Source: Terriglobia bacterium (lineage in GTDB: Bacteria; Acidobacteriota; Terriglobia; Acidiferrales; UBA7541). From it: 64,000 nt of DNA. Every line of letters begins with the position of its first letter. Position 1 is the first letter of the stretch. The position numbers and the translations under genes are program-made. The notes under the pieces were generated by a model. That model saw only the letters and a program-made list of their open reading frames with translations, did not search any database and was not told the origin of the DNA. Where the stretch lies: contig JAIQFB010000019.1 of NCBI GenBank assembly GCA_020073485.1, positions 62,001 to 126,000 of the forward strand, read 5' to 3'. Below are positions 47,517-52,747 of this stretch, one piece after another.

Positions 47517-48707
47517 CTACTCGACCTTTACCGTAGGGGGCATTCCCTTCAACCAAACAACCTTGGCACCCGCTTGTGCAAACTGATCGTAATTCGTAGC
47601 GCGCGTCGGAATTATTGCGATGGTCTGAAAGTTCACATCCCGCGCGGCGGCGCGCTCAATAACACCGCGCAATCCGGAGTTGTCTAAGTGAGTCGCCATT
47701 TCGTCTAAGATCAAGACCGTCGGCATGTACTTTGCGGAGAATTGTGCAAGTGTCACAGCGATCTCGATAAGAGCGTGAGTAAGTTCGCCGGATGATACCT
47801 GTCCTAGCGATAAGTCAAAATCGTTTCCCCTCAGTCTGAGCATCACCTGAAGCTTTTTCTTTTCGCGTTGAAGGGTAAGCCTCTGAATAAGCTCGTTTTG
47901 GGGTTCGGTCGCTTCTACTAGCTCTGCCATTATTGCGGGAGGGAGCCCAAATACCGCTGAGAGTCGCCCAAGGTCGTTCATGCGCCCCCAATTCCGAATC
48001 TGGCGAAAATCCTTGGGCACTATGAATCGAATACTGAAGGGTTGAAATGGAACTGGTCTGTCATCAATCATATAGTGAATAAATCGATCTTCTTCGATAC
48101 GAAATCCGACAGTCCGTTCTACTGGATCAAAGTACGTAATCTGAACTCTAAGCGGGTTATTAGTGTCAACGGGACTGAGCCAACGTTGAAGCTGTCTCTC
48201 GTCGCCGATTCCCGCAGCCCACTGCCAAAGCGCAGTTTTCCCGGTTTCGTTGTTTCCGGTGATGAGCGTAACTTTGCCAAACTCAAGAGCCGCAGGCGTT
48301 GAGAATAGAGGGCCGCCTTTGATGATCATGCGGTGGAACCAACCTAAGGGTGCGACAACACCGCGCTGTTCTCTCGCAATCCTGGATTCGTGCAGCCTCT
48401 TGTATTCGAATAGGAGCGGAGCAGGAAACTGCTCACCTCGATTGTTATCTATGAGCTTCGCATGTTCGCTACAAAGCCAGATTGCATTTTCGGGACCCGA
48501 TAGATCGTATGGAGTCAGATCTCCCCATCCTCTAGGGCCACCTTTTGAGGCGCTGTAAATATGAGCGGCAACTCCAGTCCGGGAGACTTCCCTTAGTGCA
48601 GGGCCTGGCCCCAGGGTGACCCGTTCGCATCCTGGATAGCTGCACTTGTACGCGCTGCGTGAAGCAACCAACTCTTTAACAGACTCTGTGAATTCTATTC
48701 GTGCCAT
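47517..48707 (-). CDS. HNH nuclease - ABC-type ATPase single-chain protein (defence candidate)
   Basis: 396 residues. The N-terminal HNH-type domain has Cys22/Cys27 (YKCSYPGC), AAHIYSASKGGPRG (His49) and ENAIWLCSEHAKLID (Asn74, Cys79, His82), giving the H-N-H set plus zinc cysteines. The SMC/RecF-like ATPase has Walker A GNNETGKT (151-158), signature SSGE (305-308) and Walker B VLILDE (331-336) followed by ATHLD (D-loop). Septu defence systems use a separate ATPase (PtuA) and HNH nuclease (PtuB); here both activities are in one short chain, nuclease first. Third gene of a three-gene operon, 72 nt after the membrane gene. The DNA is visibly more AT-rich than the chromosome to the left. Confidence 0.82.
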   Translation of the reverse strand: MARIEFTESVKELVASRSAYKCSYPGCERVTLGPGPALREVSRTGVAAHIYSASKGGPRGWGDLTPYDLSGPENAIWLCSEHAKLIDNNRGEQFPAPLLFEYKRLHESRIAREQRGVVAPLGWFHRMIIKGGPLFSTPAALEFGKVTLITGNNETGKTALWQWAAGIGDERQLQRWLSPVDTNNPLRVQITYFDPVERTVGFRIEEDRFIHYMIDDRPVPFQPFSIRFIVPKDFRQIRNWGRMNDLGRLSAVFGLPPAIMAELVEATEPQNELIQRLTLQREKKKLQVMLRLRGNDFDLSLGQVSSGELTHALIEIAVTLAQFSAKYMPTVLILDEMATHLDNSGLRGVIERAAARDVNFQTIAIIPTRATNYDQFAQAGAKVVWLKGMPPTVKVE

Positions 48708-48779: not shown

Positions 48780-49406
48780 CTACTCGGGCGGGTCCGTCGG
48801 ATGCCCAACACCGTAGGTAATGCCTGTTGTGTTAACTGTAGCGCCGGGTGAGTTGTCCAGGAACTCTTTATAGCTTTTGATGCGGTTGCTTCTTAGCCAC
48901 CACAACAAAACGAACGACAGAAGGATAAAAAGGTAGGGCAGACTCCGGGGAAATTCAAAGTTCCCGACTGGTTCATGAATACCCGGCAACACCCGAGCAA
49001 CGAAGTGATAGAAAGTAAAGAGCAGTGCGATTCCTATGCCCAAAGCGTACTGTATCTTAAGATGTGTCAACATCGCGGTTTTAGCGCGATGCTTTCCAAA
49101 ATAATAGTGGATATCCTTCAGGTCGGTACCGCTCAGGAATTGGCGTTCGATGTTCGCGATAATGACCAAGTTCCGGTTATACCAATACGATGCATCGTAC
49201 AGGTGCGCGATCAGCCAAGCGGAAAGCATTATCATCAGCGAACATGCGTAGTCTATCGGGATTATATTTTTTTCCACCAGCGCAAAGACCGCAAAGGCAC
49301 CGACGACGACACCAACCGACTGCCAAACGACGAGAATATGCGTGTCGATGTCGTTGAACATCTGGTCGTACATCCTTAGCAAAAATTCTTTTCTATAGTC
49401 TTCCAT
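48780..49406 (-). CDS. Four-helix membrane protein of unknown function
   Basis: 208 residues with membrane helices at about 24-44, 50-70, 117-137 and 156-172. The 45-residue cytoplasmic loop between helices 2 and 3 is rich in charged and aromatic residues (SYWYNRNL, IERQFLSG, IHYYFGKHR). A short helix (YDQMFNDIDTHI) precedes the first span. I recall similar unnamed proteins, but know no function. The layout of two hairpins with a soluble loop suits an effector or sensor in a defence operon. It overlaps the end of the upstream gene by 14 nt. Confidence 0.8.
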   Translation of the reverse strand: MEDYRKEFLLRMYDQMFNDIDTHILVVWQSVGVVVGAFAVFALVEKNIIPIDYACSLMIMLSAWLIAHLYDASYWYNRNLVIIANIERQFLSGTDLKDIHYYFGKHRAKTAMLTHLKIQYALGIGIALLFTFYHFVARVLPGIHEPVGNFEFPRSLPYLFILLSFVLLWWLRSNRIKSYKEFLDNSPGATVNTTGITYGVGHPTDPPE

Positions 49407-50034
49407 GACTTTCGTAACTGCTCCAAAGCCTGTTGATATTCCTTATCGATTCGCGAATGCACCGTTCGTAACCGCCTGCCGGATGTGGTCTGAACGTCTC
49501 CCCATCGAAGTAATCCCCAAATGCAGCATCAAGAGTGAACCGATTGCAGTCCATGCTCACCACGGGCATGATTTCAGCCAGCCTCCTTTGGATATCAGGA
49601 CGCCCTCCGAGCAGATGGACAGAACGTTTGAAGAATCTAGGGGATATCACAGTGCCACCATAACGCGTTGGAACGCTGTACCCAAGAATAAATTTCTTCG
49701 GAATGTGGCTATCGAGCTTATTCTTCAAGCTAGGATGTTTGGGCACAATGATGACTCGGTCGCAATAGAGACTCAGTTCCCAAGCCTGATCCAGAGTCTT
49801 GGTTAGTTTTCGGGGGTCATCAATATCGAGTGCCACAGTAATTACTGGTCTTGTTGCCTTTGCAGCTTTCAGGTGCCGTTCGAACGAATAGTTCTTCCAT
49901 TCAATGTCTAGAAATCCAACTCTGTCACATCTCCGAACGTCGCGCAGATTCGTATAGCGTGCGCCGGGAAGCCATCCGTACCTTCGCGCTATCCTCAAAA
50001 CGCGATAGCTGTGCGCTACGAATTTGAGGACCAT
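49393..50034 (-). CDS. TIM-barrel-like protein (DUF6610-type; weak TGT/DpdA resemblance)
   Basis: 213 residues, first gene of the island operon. Repeating strand-helix units end in polar loops: GFLDIEWKNY (40-49), PVITVALDI (63-71), RVIIVPKH (93-100), FILGYSVPTRYGG (115-127), HLLGGRPDIQRRL (140-152) and VVSMDCNRFTLDAAFGDYFDG (158-178). The order of a VPTR-like turn, HLLGG and an acidic S-x-D strand recalls tRNA-guanine transglycosylases and the DNA-modifying DpdA, but the zinc site of TGT is not seen. I believe it belongs with DUF6610-type proteins. If related to DpdA it might act on nucleobases; this is inference. Confidence 0.7.
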   Translation of the reverse strand: MVLKFVAHSYRVLRIARRYGWLPGARYTNLRDVRRCDRVGFLDIEWKNYSFERHLKAAKATRPVITVALDIDDPRKLTKTLDQAWELSLYCDRVIIVPKHPSLKNKLDSHIPKKFILGYSVPTRYGGTVISPRFFKRSVHLLGGRPDIQRRLAEIMPVVSMDCNRFTLDAAFGDYFDGETFRPHPAGGYERCIRESIRNINRLWSSYESHGRL

Positions 50035-51067: not shown

Positions 51068-52747
51068 TCAAACCGTTCCCACAAGATGACGTTTCGAGAC
51101 TTCCGGGTAGACCGCGCTTGCACGGTTCAACCCATCAGCGATGCTATTGCACATATTGTCGAGTCCGATGTGCTGCTCAAACTCAGCCTGATGCATGAGT
51201 CTCGTAGGTTGTTCCTTGGCCCCGCAAAGAATGAGTTCTCGTCCCGATTCGTGCACCTTGTCCGCTAAGTTCTCTAATGCCTGGAGACCGGTGGAATCGA
51301 TCGCGGTCATATTTCGCAATCTCAGAATCAGGATCGGGGGCAGGCTGGACAACCGCGATGTGATCTCCTCGATCTTGTCGGTTGCTCCGAACAGGAAAGG
51401 CCCATGAATTCTAAAGATGGCGACGTATGAAGGGATTACCTTGTGCTGTAGGATGTGAACATGTCCTTCACGAACATATTCTTCAGATACTTCCGAGACC
51501 GTGGTGGTTTGCGTGACTTTCCTAATGAAAACCAGCACCGCGAGAATCATACCTGCTTCCACGGCTATTGTCAGATCCGCAAATACCGTCAATAGAAAAG
51601 TGACGAGCCATGTCGCAATCTCCATTCGGGAGAGTTTCAAGAGCTCAGGGATTTCCCCCCACTCACCCATGTTGTAAGAGACAACGAGAAGAATTGCTGC
51701 CAGGACAGACAACGGGATGAATCTTGCCAGGGGAGCGGCGAAGACCACGATGACCAAGAGAGTTAGGGCATGAATCATTCCAGATACCGGAGTTTTTGCC
51801 CCGGAACGGATGTTGGTGGCCGTTCTCGCGATTGCCCCTGTCGCTGGAAGCCCTCCAAACAGCGGAGAAAGAATGTTCGCGACGCCTTGTCCCATAAGTT
51901 CCACGTTTGGATTGTGCTTGTCGCCGCTCATGCGATCGGAGACCACCGCGGACATCAACGATTCGATTGCGCCTAGCATGGCGACTGTGATTGCCGGCGA
52001 AATCAAAGGCCGGAGTAAGTCCACGCGAAAGTGCGGCACCTTAAGCGTTGGTAGCCCTGCGGGAATACCTCCAAAACGCGTGCCAATCGTTTCAACCGGT
52101 AGTTTCAACAGCATGACCGCCGCCGTGCCAACAAAGAGGGCGACGATGTAACCCGGAACTCGTTTTACGTAACGCATGGAAACAATAATCACGGCAAGGG
52201 CTATAATCGCCAGGCCTGTCTCCAATGGCGAGAACGAAGAGAAATTGTGAGCAACCGTCTGCATGCGATCCAGAAATTCACCGGGAACCTTCTCGATTTT
52301 TAGCCCAAAGAAATCCTTGATTTGAGTGCTGGCGATAAGAACCGCGATACCGTTCGTAAAACCGACGACAACCGGGCGCGGCATGAATTTGACGGCCGTG
52401 CCCAAACCCGTTGCGCCCAAAATCAACAGGAGGACACCGGCCATCAGGGTGCACATGAACAGTCCGTCCATGCCATACTTCGCGACGATGCCGAAGACGA
52501 CAACAACGAACGCTCCGGTTGGACCACCAATCTGCGTGGAAGATCCTCCCAAAGCGGAGATCGCAAAGCCCGCGACGATGGCGCAGTACAGGCCTGCTTG
52601 CGGGGGCACGCCCGAAGCAATGGCGAAGGCCATCGCGAGCGGCAGTGCGACGAAACCAACGGTTATGCCTGATAGAAGGTCCGCCACGAACAGGCGCTTC
52701 GAGTAGGACTTCAGGCATAGCACGGATTTGGGCAGCCAGTTATTCAT
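51068..52747 (-). CDS. SulP family anion transporter with STAS domain
   Basis: 559 residues. The UraA-type 7+7 helix fold begins FVADLLSGITVGFVALPLAMAFAIASGV (SulP signature). TM3 has the GGPTGAFVVVV motif, and the second repeat has GLPATGAIARTATNI. The C-terminal STAS domain (about 430-545) has LILRLRNMTAIDSTGLQALE, including the Asp-Ser-Thr-Gly core. SulP proteins carry sulfate, bicarbonate, nitrate or similar ions, often with sodium or protons. It lies behind an ArsR-type regulator on the same strand, with an operator-like dyad in between, and back-to-back with the Ehr-like complex. Bicarbonate or sulfate are both possible. Confidence 0.93.
   Translation of the reverse strand: MNNWLPKSVLCLKSYSKRLFVADLLSGITVGFVALPLAMAFAIASGVPPQAGLYCAIVAGFAISALGGSSTQIGGPTGAFVVVVFGIVAKYGMDGLFMCTLMAGVLLLILGATGLGTAVKFMPRPVVVGFTNGIAVLIASTQIKDFFGLKIEKVPGEFLDRMQTVAHNFSSFSPLETGLAIIALAVIIVSMRYVKRVPGYIVALFVGTAAVMLLKLPVETIGTRFGGIPAGLPTLKVPHFRVDLLRPLISPAITVAMLGAIESLMSAVVSDRMSGDKHNPNVELMGQGVANILSPLFGGLPATGAIARTATNIRSGAKTPVSGMIHALTLLVIVVFAAPLARFIPLSVLAAILLVVSYNMGEWGEIPELLKLSRMEIATWLVTFLLTVFADLTIAVEAGMILAVLVFIRKVTQTTTVSEVSEEYVREGHVHILQHKVIPSYVAIFRIHGPFLFGATDKIEEITSRLSSLPPILILRLRNMTAIDSTGLQALENLADKVHESGRELILCGAKEQPTRLMHQAEFEQHIGLDNMCNSIADGLNRASAVYPEVSKRHLVGTV

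Follow-up and report, generated by a model that had tools for sequence, protein, structure and literature searches.

The stretch of DNA analysed here (the window, 64,000 nucleotides) carries a gene for a 396-residue protein in which an HNH nuclease module of the Cap5 class, the class of CBASS effectors, is joined in a single chain to a small ABC ATPase head of the SMC/Rad50/RecF kind. We interpret this protein, with a probability of about 0.6, as a stand-alone nuclease acting against phages or other invaders, in which the SAVED sensor of Cap5 has been replaced by the ABC head and the activity is gated by a nucleotide. The earlier note on this DNA had the limits of the gene (47517-48707) exactly right and the strand is minus; the motifs it named (H49, N74, H82, C22, C27, C79, residues 151-158 and 305-308, and Walker B) lie at the residues it gave, and its description of a compact HNH and ABC protein in one chain stands as well, since both folds are predicted and the profile matches are far from chance (Table 1). 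The frame is uninterrupted over its 396 codons, the plus strand at the same positions is rich in stops, and 24 other full-length members of the family align with the protein end to end.

Table 1. Positions in the window of the HNH-ABC gene, the features of its product and the two genes upstream
Feature	Positions	Strand	Residues	Basis or remark
HNH-ABC fusion gene	47517..48707	minus		396 aa; ATG at 48707, TAG ending at 47517
Cap5-type HNH (beta-beta-alpha metal) nuclease module	48363..48707	minus	1-115	profiles, predicted fold
Cys22, zinc ligand 1	48642..48644	minus	22	invariant in 85 relatives
Cys27, zinc ligand 2	48627..48629	minus	27	invariant in 85 relatives
His49, general base, equivalent to PsCap5 His56	48561..48563	minus	49	invariant in 85 relatives; aligned with solved Cap5
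Arg59	48531..48533	minus	59	invariant in 85 relatives and in five aligned Cap5-like solved sequences
Asn74, N of HNH	48486..48488	minus	74	invariant in 85 relatives
Cys79, zinc ligand 3	48471..48473	minus	79	invariant in 85 relatives
His82, zinc ligand 4, non-catalytic	48462..48464	minus	82	His/Cys exchange in 85 relatives; register of PMC3765158
Ala83, position of the third HNH residue	48459..48461	minus	83	A/G/S in 83/85 relatives
Asp87, possible metal ligand	48447..48449	minus	87	invariant in 85 relatives
SMC/Rad50/RecF-like ABC head without coiled coil	47520..48347	minus	121-396	predicted fold
Walker A, GNNETGKT	48234..48257	minus	151-158	Lys kept in 24/25 members
ABC signature, SSGE	47784..47795	minus	305-308	signature Ser kept in 16/25 members
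Walker B, with Asp335-Glu336	47700..47717	minus	331-336	Glu kept in 6/25 members
Strand after Walker B, QTIAIIPTR	47601..47627	minus	361-369	Gln present in all 25 members; no H-loop His
Membrane protein gene	48780-49406	minus		208 aa, several hydrophobic stretches; upstream of HNH-ABC
DUF6610 gene	49393-50034	minus		upstream of HNH-ABC; E 3.4e-54

By profile, by the sequences of solved structures and by fold, the nuclease half belongs to the Cap5 class; the PtuB type found in Septu ranks far lower in fold. Two PADLOC models match it, that of CBASS endonuclease effectors (E 4.6e-20) and that of SAVED-HNH proteins (E 1.4e-19), both over residues 3-112 only, and Pfam has nothing above cut-off for residues 1-115. 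Its top solved relatives with known function are Cap5 chains, and its single-sequence matches to SAVED-domain chains range from E 4e-7 to 2e-6. When the domain is predicted alone (85 sequences, pLDDT 94.5) it forms strands 41-49 and 75-79 followed by helix 80-89, i.e., the N-terminal beta-beta-alpha metal fold on which the earlier note had made its reading depend. The top solved fold is that of Pseudomonas syringae Cap5 (8fmf, Z 15.0, 3.0 A, 114 residues), and Asticcacaulis Cap5 (7rwk) gives Z 13.1; McrA-type enzymes stand below Cap5, at Z 6-8 (6ghc, Z 7.9), and PtuB chains at 4.2-4.4 (retron-Eco7 PtuB, 4.4), so that the HNH half lends no support to the Septu frame in which the protein had been placed.

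The module shares with Cap5 its N-terminal position, the zinc site, the base histidine and the GPR...N...C..[HC]...D layout, and entry 9nlg carries a mutation of His56, the PsCap5 residue with which His49 aligns. Positions that never change in the 85 relatives are F6, C22, C27, G45, H49, I50, R59, N74, C79 and D87. Position 82 is His in 42, Cys in 42 and Asp in one, an interchange that fits a zinc ligand and so makes His82 the fourth one; and since the third HNH residue immediately follows the fourth zinc ligand in characterised enzymes such as Gmet_0936 and Hpy99I (PMC3765158), the third position here is Ala83. Most Cap5 proteins have His there, whereas this protein has Ala; of the five aligned Cap5-like solved sequences four have His, and 8ysq, a SAVED-HNH protein, has Gly. 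The active site would therefore consist of H49 and N74, with the invariant R59 and D87 nearby in sequence, and D87 may supply the absent metal ligand. The claim that all catalytic residues are in place was hence too generous: His82 binds zinc, the third HNH position is Ala83, and in the other half the H-loop His is missing. To judge from these residues, the lack of the third HNH residue leaves nuclease activity likely but short of certain.

The second half has the features of the ABC superfamily of the SMC/RecF type (head fold, Walker A, signature and Walker B) and is predicted at a pLDDT mostly of 85-94. It matches SMC, Rad50 and RecF heads at fold Z 16-18.5 over about 260 residues, SMC being the best (18.5), and is small because the coiled coil is absent. 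Sequence profiles on this half are all weak (SMC_N at 1e-4, AriA, mad3, GajA and PtuA). The profile of the half itself, run against solved structures, finds retron Ec83 PtuA best (7.8e-8) and SMC at 2e-7; the PtuA profile touches residues 145-161 only (E 0.004-0.01), and PtuA is no nearer to this head than are those of SMC, Rad50 or AriA. The whole chain, predicted as one chain, gives a pTM of 0.69, which leaves the mutual placement of the two halves uncertain.

The full-length set comprises 25 members, the window copy included, from Acidobacteriota, Verrucomicrobiota, Binatota, Myxococcota, Actinomycetota, Bacillota and Pseudomonadota (seven phyla), and from viral-collection contigs. On genome contigs a single-protein query gave no match, and members were reached with an alignment query. 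The fusion is rare: of 396 genomes drawn from the whole breadth of the phylum, 2 have a full-length member and 25 have the HNH module. Mean pairwise identity over the 25 members is 47% in the HNH half and 22% in the ABC half. H49, R59, N74, D87, C22, C27 and C79 are conserved in all of them, as are Gly156 and Gln361, and the Walker B Asp is kept in 19. The Walker B Glu and the signature Ser do not characterise the family, being kept in 6 and 16 of the 25 respectively, and the window copy is the sole member with both; even there the hydrolysis set is incomplete, Glu336 being present and the H-loop His not. The Streptomyces members have no signature motif, and a classical ATP sandwich dimer may therefore not form in them. 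Taken by its motifs, the family appears to retain nucleotide binding and to have mostly lost hydrolysis.

Three possibilities had been offered for such a compact protein: an ancestor, a minimal form or a different system. The last is the best of them. The HNH-domain tree is poorly resolved, with the ABC-bearing rows in three clusters that need 4 changes and a single origin not rejected (p-AU 0.24), and therefore supports neither the word ancestor nor any number of fusions, one or several. The ABC motifs have the look of erosion, not of a primitive state, and nothing seems to mark the protein as an ancestor. A fused or ancestral Septu was also considered, but finds no support in the nuclease half, which matches Cap5 at Z 15.0 and PtuB at Z 4.4; a Cap5-type nuclease with an SMC/Rad50/RecF-like head is therefore better described as a sensor-swapped relative of Cap5.

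Known systems resemble this protein in parts. Where it has the ABC head, Cap5 has a C-terminal SAVED domain, and CBASS has a CD-NTase, whereas the genes upstream of this one encode the membrane protein and DUF6610, and none is common to the relatives. Septu and retron I-A PtuAB likewise pair an ABC ATPase with an HNH nuclease, but Septu does so with two genes (ptuA and ptuB), and here there is one chain, with no further gene for an ATPase or HNH protein next to it. The PtuB HNH is a distant fold match, of the same superfamily and by rank of another class. Septu proteins were said to be separate and longer; they are separate, and PtuA is longer (chains of 465-550 aa), but PtuB is not (about 210-224 aa). 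Septu, moreover, needs its Walker A and B residues (PMC13096335), whereas most of the relatives have lost the Walker B Glu. ABC-3C/Lamassu systems with an HNH effector use the same HNH module together with an SMC-like ATPase; HNH-bearing Lamassu has been reported (PMC10586767), and in an annotated ABC-three-component locus of Rhodococcus fascians (L015) the module is the effector, in trans with the ABC ATPase (26% identity over 226 aa, E 2e-18). Those systems, however, divide the work among three genes, one of them for a middle component and one for a larger ATPase, and neither the SMC-like ATPase nor the middle component is adjacent in the window or common to the relatives. The pairs of HNH and OLD-type ABC ATPase genes beside BREX (PMC12839542) show the same nuclease-ATPase pairing, but are described as separate neighbouring genes. 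Finally, OLD, GajA and AriA are defence proteins with ABC heads like this one (weak profile matches to AriA, mad3 and GajA), but they have a Toprim partner where this protein has HNH, and no profile covers its ABC half well.

No model in Pfam, NCBIfam, PHROGs or PADLOC spans the full length of the protein, and no solved structure aligns with both halves. What is already known, then, are separate-gene pairs of HNH and OLD-type ABC proteins, Septu and HNH-bearing Lamassu, and the one-chain combination of a Cap5-type HNH with ABC is in no model or solved structure. The papers covered, which do not include the main survey of conflict-system ABC ATPases (Krishnan et al. 2020), do not describe the fusion, and an earlier mention is possible.

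No neighbour gene is common to the 24 loci of the relatives, except between close relatives, and the gene therefore probably acts alone. Genes of Gabija, Lamassu or PDC-S06 adjoin four independent loci. The candidate defence ATPase PDC-S06 stands beside three members (L021, L022 and L072; E 1e-302, 3.5e-290): in two Opitutae it is directly upstream or one gene off, and in Pseudomonas oryzihabitans it is nearby; in Nitrincola (L033) GajA (E 4e-117) and a helicase are immediately upstream; and in Rhizobium hidalgonense (L017) LmuB is nearby (E 2.5e-264). Given the usual density of defence genes, well under one such coincidence would be expected in 24 loci; the association concerns a hand-picked set of neighbours with no matched control. 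Three members (L014, L019 and L021) have integrases in their vicinity, six are on viral-collection contigs (L094-L099), and some are in prophages. Taken together, the roughly two dozen relatives, several of which adjoin established defence genes or sit in prophages, point to an as yet uncharacterised anti-phage nuclease encoded by a single gene. On the Rhizobium hidalgonense megaplasmid a solo HNH gene (L017:3751-4608), the HNH-ABC gene (L017:4989-6251) and LmuB (L017:7435-10491) lie within 7 kb.

How such a nuclease might work can be modelled on Cap5, a homodimer linked by its HNH domains. Cap5 stays inactive as long as no cyclic dinucleotide is bound to its SAVED domains; binding makes it reorganise or assemble into tetramers, and DNA is then degraded (PMC8568899, PMC12804361). 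With an ABC head where Cap5 has SAVED, the logic may well be the same, the switch being the way in which the ABC domains pack head to head. The protein would form a homodimer via its HNH domains; nucleotide binding at the heads, together with release or displacement of the nucleotide by an infection signal, would change the packing of the two heads, which would in turn switch the HNH pair from its inactive arrangement to the active one. The active pair would then degrade DNA, by which the infected cell would be stopped or the invader destroyed. That the Walker B Glu is eroded while the Walker A Lys is kept suggests that bound nucleotide matters more than turnover, so that ATP may serve mainly as a bound switch ligand and most members may need no fast hydrolysis. 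A bolder version, which we hold only tentatively, sees the hydrolysis-poor (pseudo-)ABC head purely as a switch that works by binding nucleotide and controls a Cap5-class HNH domain, making this a widespread one-gene immune nuclease. It would belong to a set of sensor-swapped effectors that carry one and the same HNH module in front of different sensor domains (SAVED, ABC, NACHT-like and others). The protein would then be among the smallest HNH and ABC immune proteins, and an ABC switch could be studied apart from hydrolysis.

In fold the ABC half comes nearest to heads that bind DNA (SMC, Rad50 and RecF), and the HNH half also matches, weakly, HNH domains of McrA-type restriction enzymes (6ghc). 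The head could accordingly be a DNA clamp that senses ends, junctions or invader DNA and delivers the HNH to it, in a restriction-like manner and not as a suicide effector; this seems rather unlikely to us, as the half has no coiled coil, hook or DNA-binding insertion, and loss of hydrolysis motifs would be unusual for a cycling clamp. Still less probable is a Septu-like mode, where ATP occupancy would keep the nuclease off, a fall in ATP or (d)NTP during infection would free it, and the target might be tRNA instead of DNA. It would suit the shared pair of activities, the presence of PtuA chains among the relatives of the ABC half, and a hydrolysis-poor head, which fits an occupancy sensor; ATP, as Li et al. 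in 2024 reportedly found, inhibits PtuAB. Defence by Septu depends on its Walker and HNH residues, and depletion of tRNA-Tyr is on record for one Septu and for one retron PtuAB (PMC13096335, PMC11555353). The nuclease half, however, is far nearer to Cap5 than to PtuB (Z 15.0 vs 4.2-4.4), and Cap5-class HNH domains degrade DNA (PMC8568899, PMC12804361).

The alanine at position 83 in place of His, together with the low GC of the island described below, could also be read as signs of a housekeeping nuclease of a mobile element, or of a decayed copy with a dead nuclease. We consider this improbable: the frame is open and intact, seven active-site and zinc residues are invariant across seven phyla, A, G or S at position 83 is clade-wide and the SAVED-HNH structure 8ysq likewise has Gly, and the neighbours of the relatives are defence genes. 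If the preferred reading, a nucleotide-gated Cap5-class defence nuclease, is correct, a compact single-gene family present in seven phyla would be added to the known set of defences, one shared nuclease module would form a bridge between the effectors of CBASS and the immune systems built on ABC ATPases (Septu, OLD and Lamassu), and the family, in which some natural members keep the catalytic Glu and others lack it, would make the role of ATP in immune ABC ATPases, as switch or motor, directly testable.

The host of the window gene is a 5.0-Mb draft genome, and its closest HNH-ABC relatives are from Acidobacteriota. The gene and the two upstream of it, all on the same strand, form an accessory island. 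The GC content of the block is 0.48-0.51, below that of its flanks (0.54-0.58); that of the HNH-ABC gene itself is 0.51, with a GC3 of 0.51 as against 0.62-0.71 in the flanking genes. Among 150 related genomes there is a single full-length relative of HNH-ABC, diverged (39% identity) and set among other neighbour genes, and no relative of DUF6610 or of the membrane protein in any; close relatives of the flanking TPR gene are absent from the genus. The membrane protein has no database match, Pfam included, and its gene overlaps that of DUF6610 by 14 nt. An operon of the three genes as a functional unit was considered and rejected: neither neighbour occurs at the 24 relatives or in the 150 genomes, and both are therefore treated as cargo of the same island. 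By eye, DUF6610 resembles the tRNA-guanine-transglycosylase/DpdA-type fold; its relatives occur on plasmids of haloarchaea, in one case close to a DUF6884 gene. Farther along the window lies a SulP-type transporter gene (51068-52747), a second copy of which, 79% identical, adjoins a hydrogenase-4/complex I-like cluster on another contig of the same genome (C45).

The HNH module is also found in other proteins. It occurs in ORF2 of the lysogenic-conversion region of phage P2-EC46 (L153:488-1594; Z region, a cargo spot), and it heads proteins of about 1460 residues that, by eye, resemble NACHT-HEAT immune receptors (L039, L044, L048, L059, L104 and L106). Rhizobium phage RHph_N28_2 (57% coverage) was rejected as a member of the HNH-ABC family, its partner domain being by eye GHKL-like and not ABC; this HNH and GHKL-ATPase-like fusion gene (L151:4001-5065, antisense) adjoins a terminase gene. 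One chain of more than 2100 aa (L063:3518-9820) carries the module together with a nucleoside phosphorylase-like C-terminal part, and is possibly an NLR-like receptor. In eight further proteins, about 365-387 aa long and mostly on viral contigs, the C-terminal part is by eye similar to phage baseplate gp25/IraD (L061, L100, L102, L107, L108, L120, L122 and L130).
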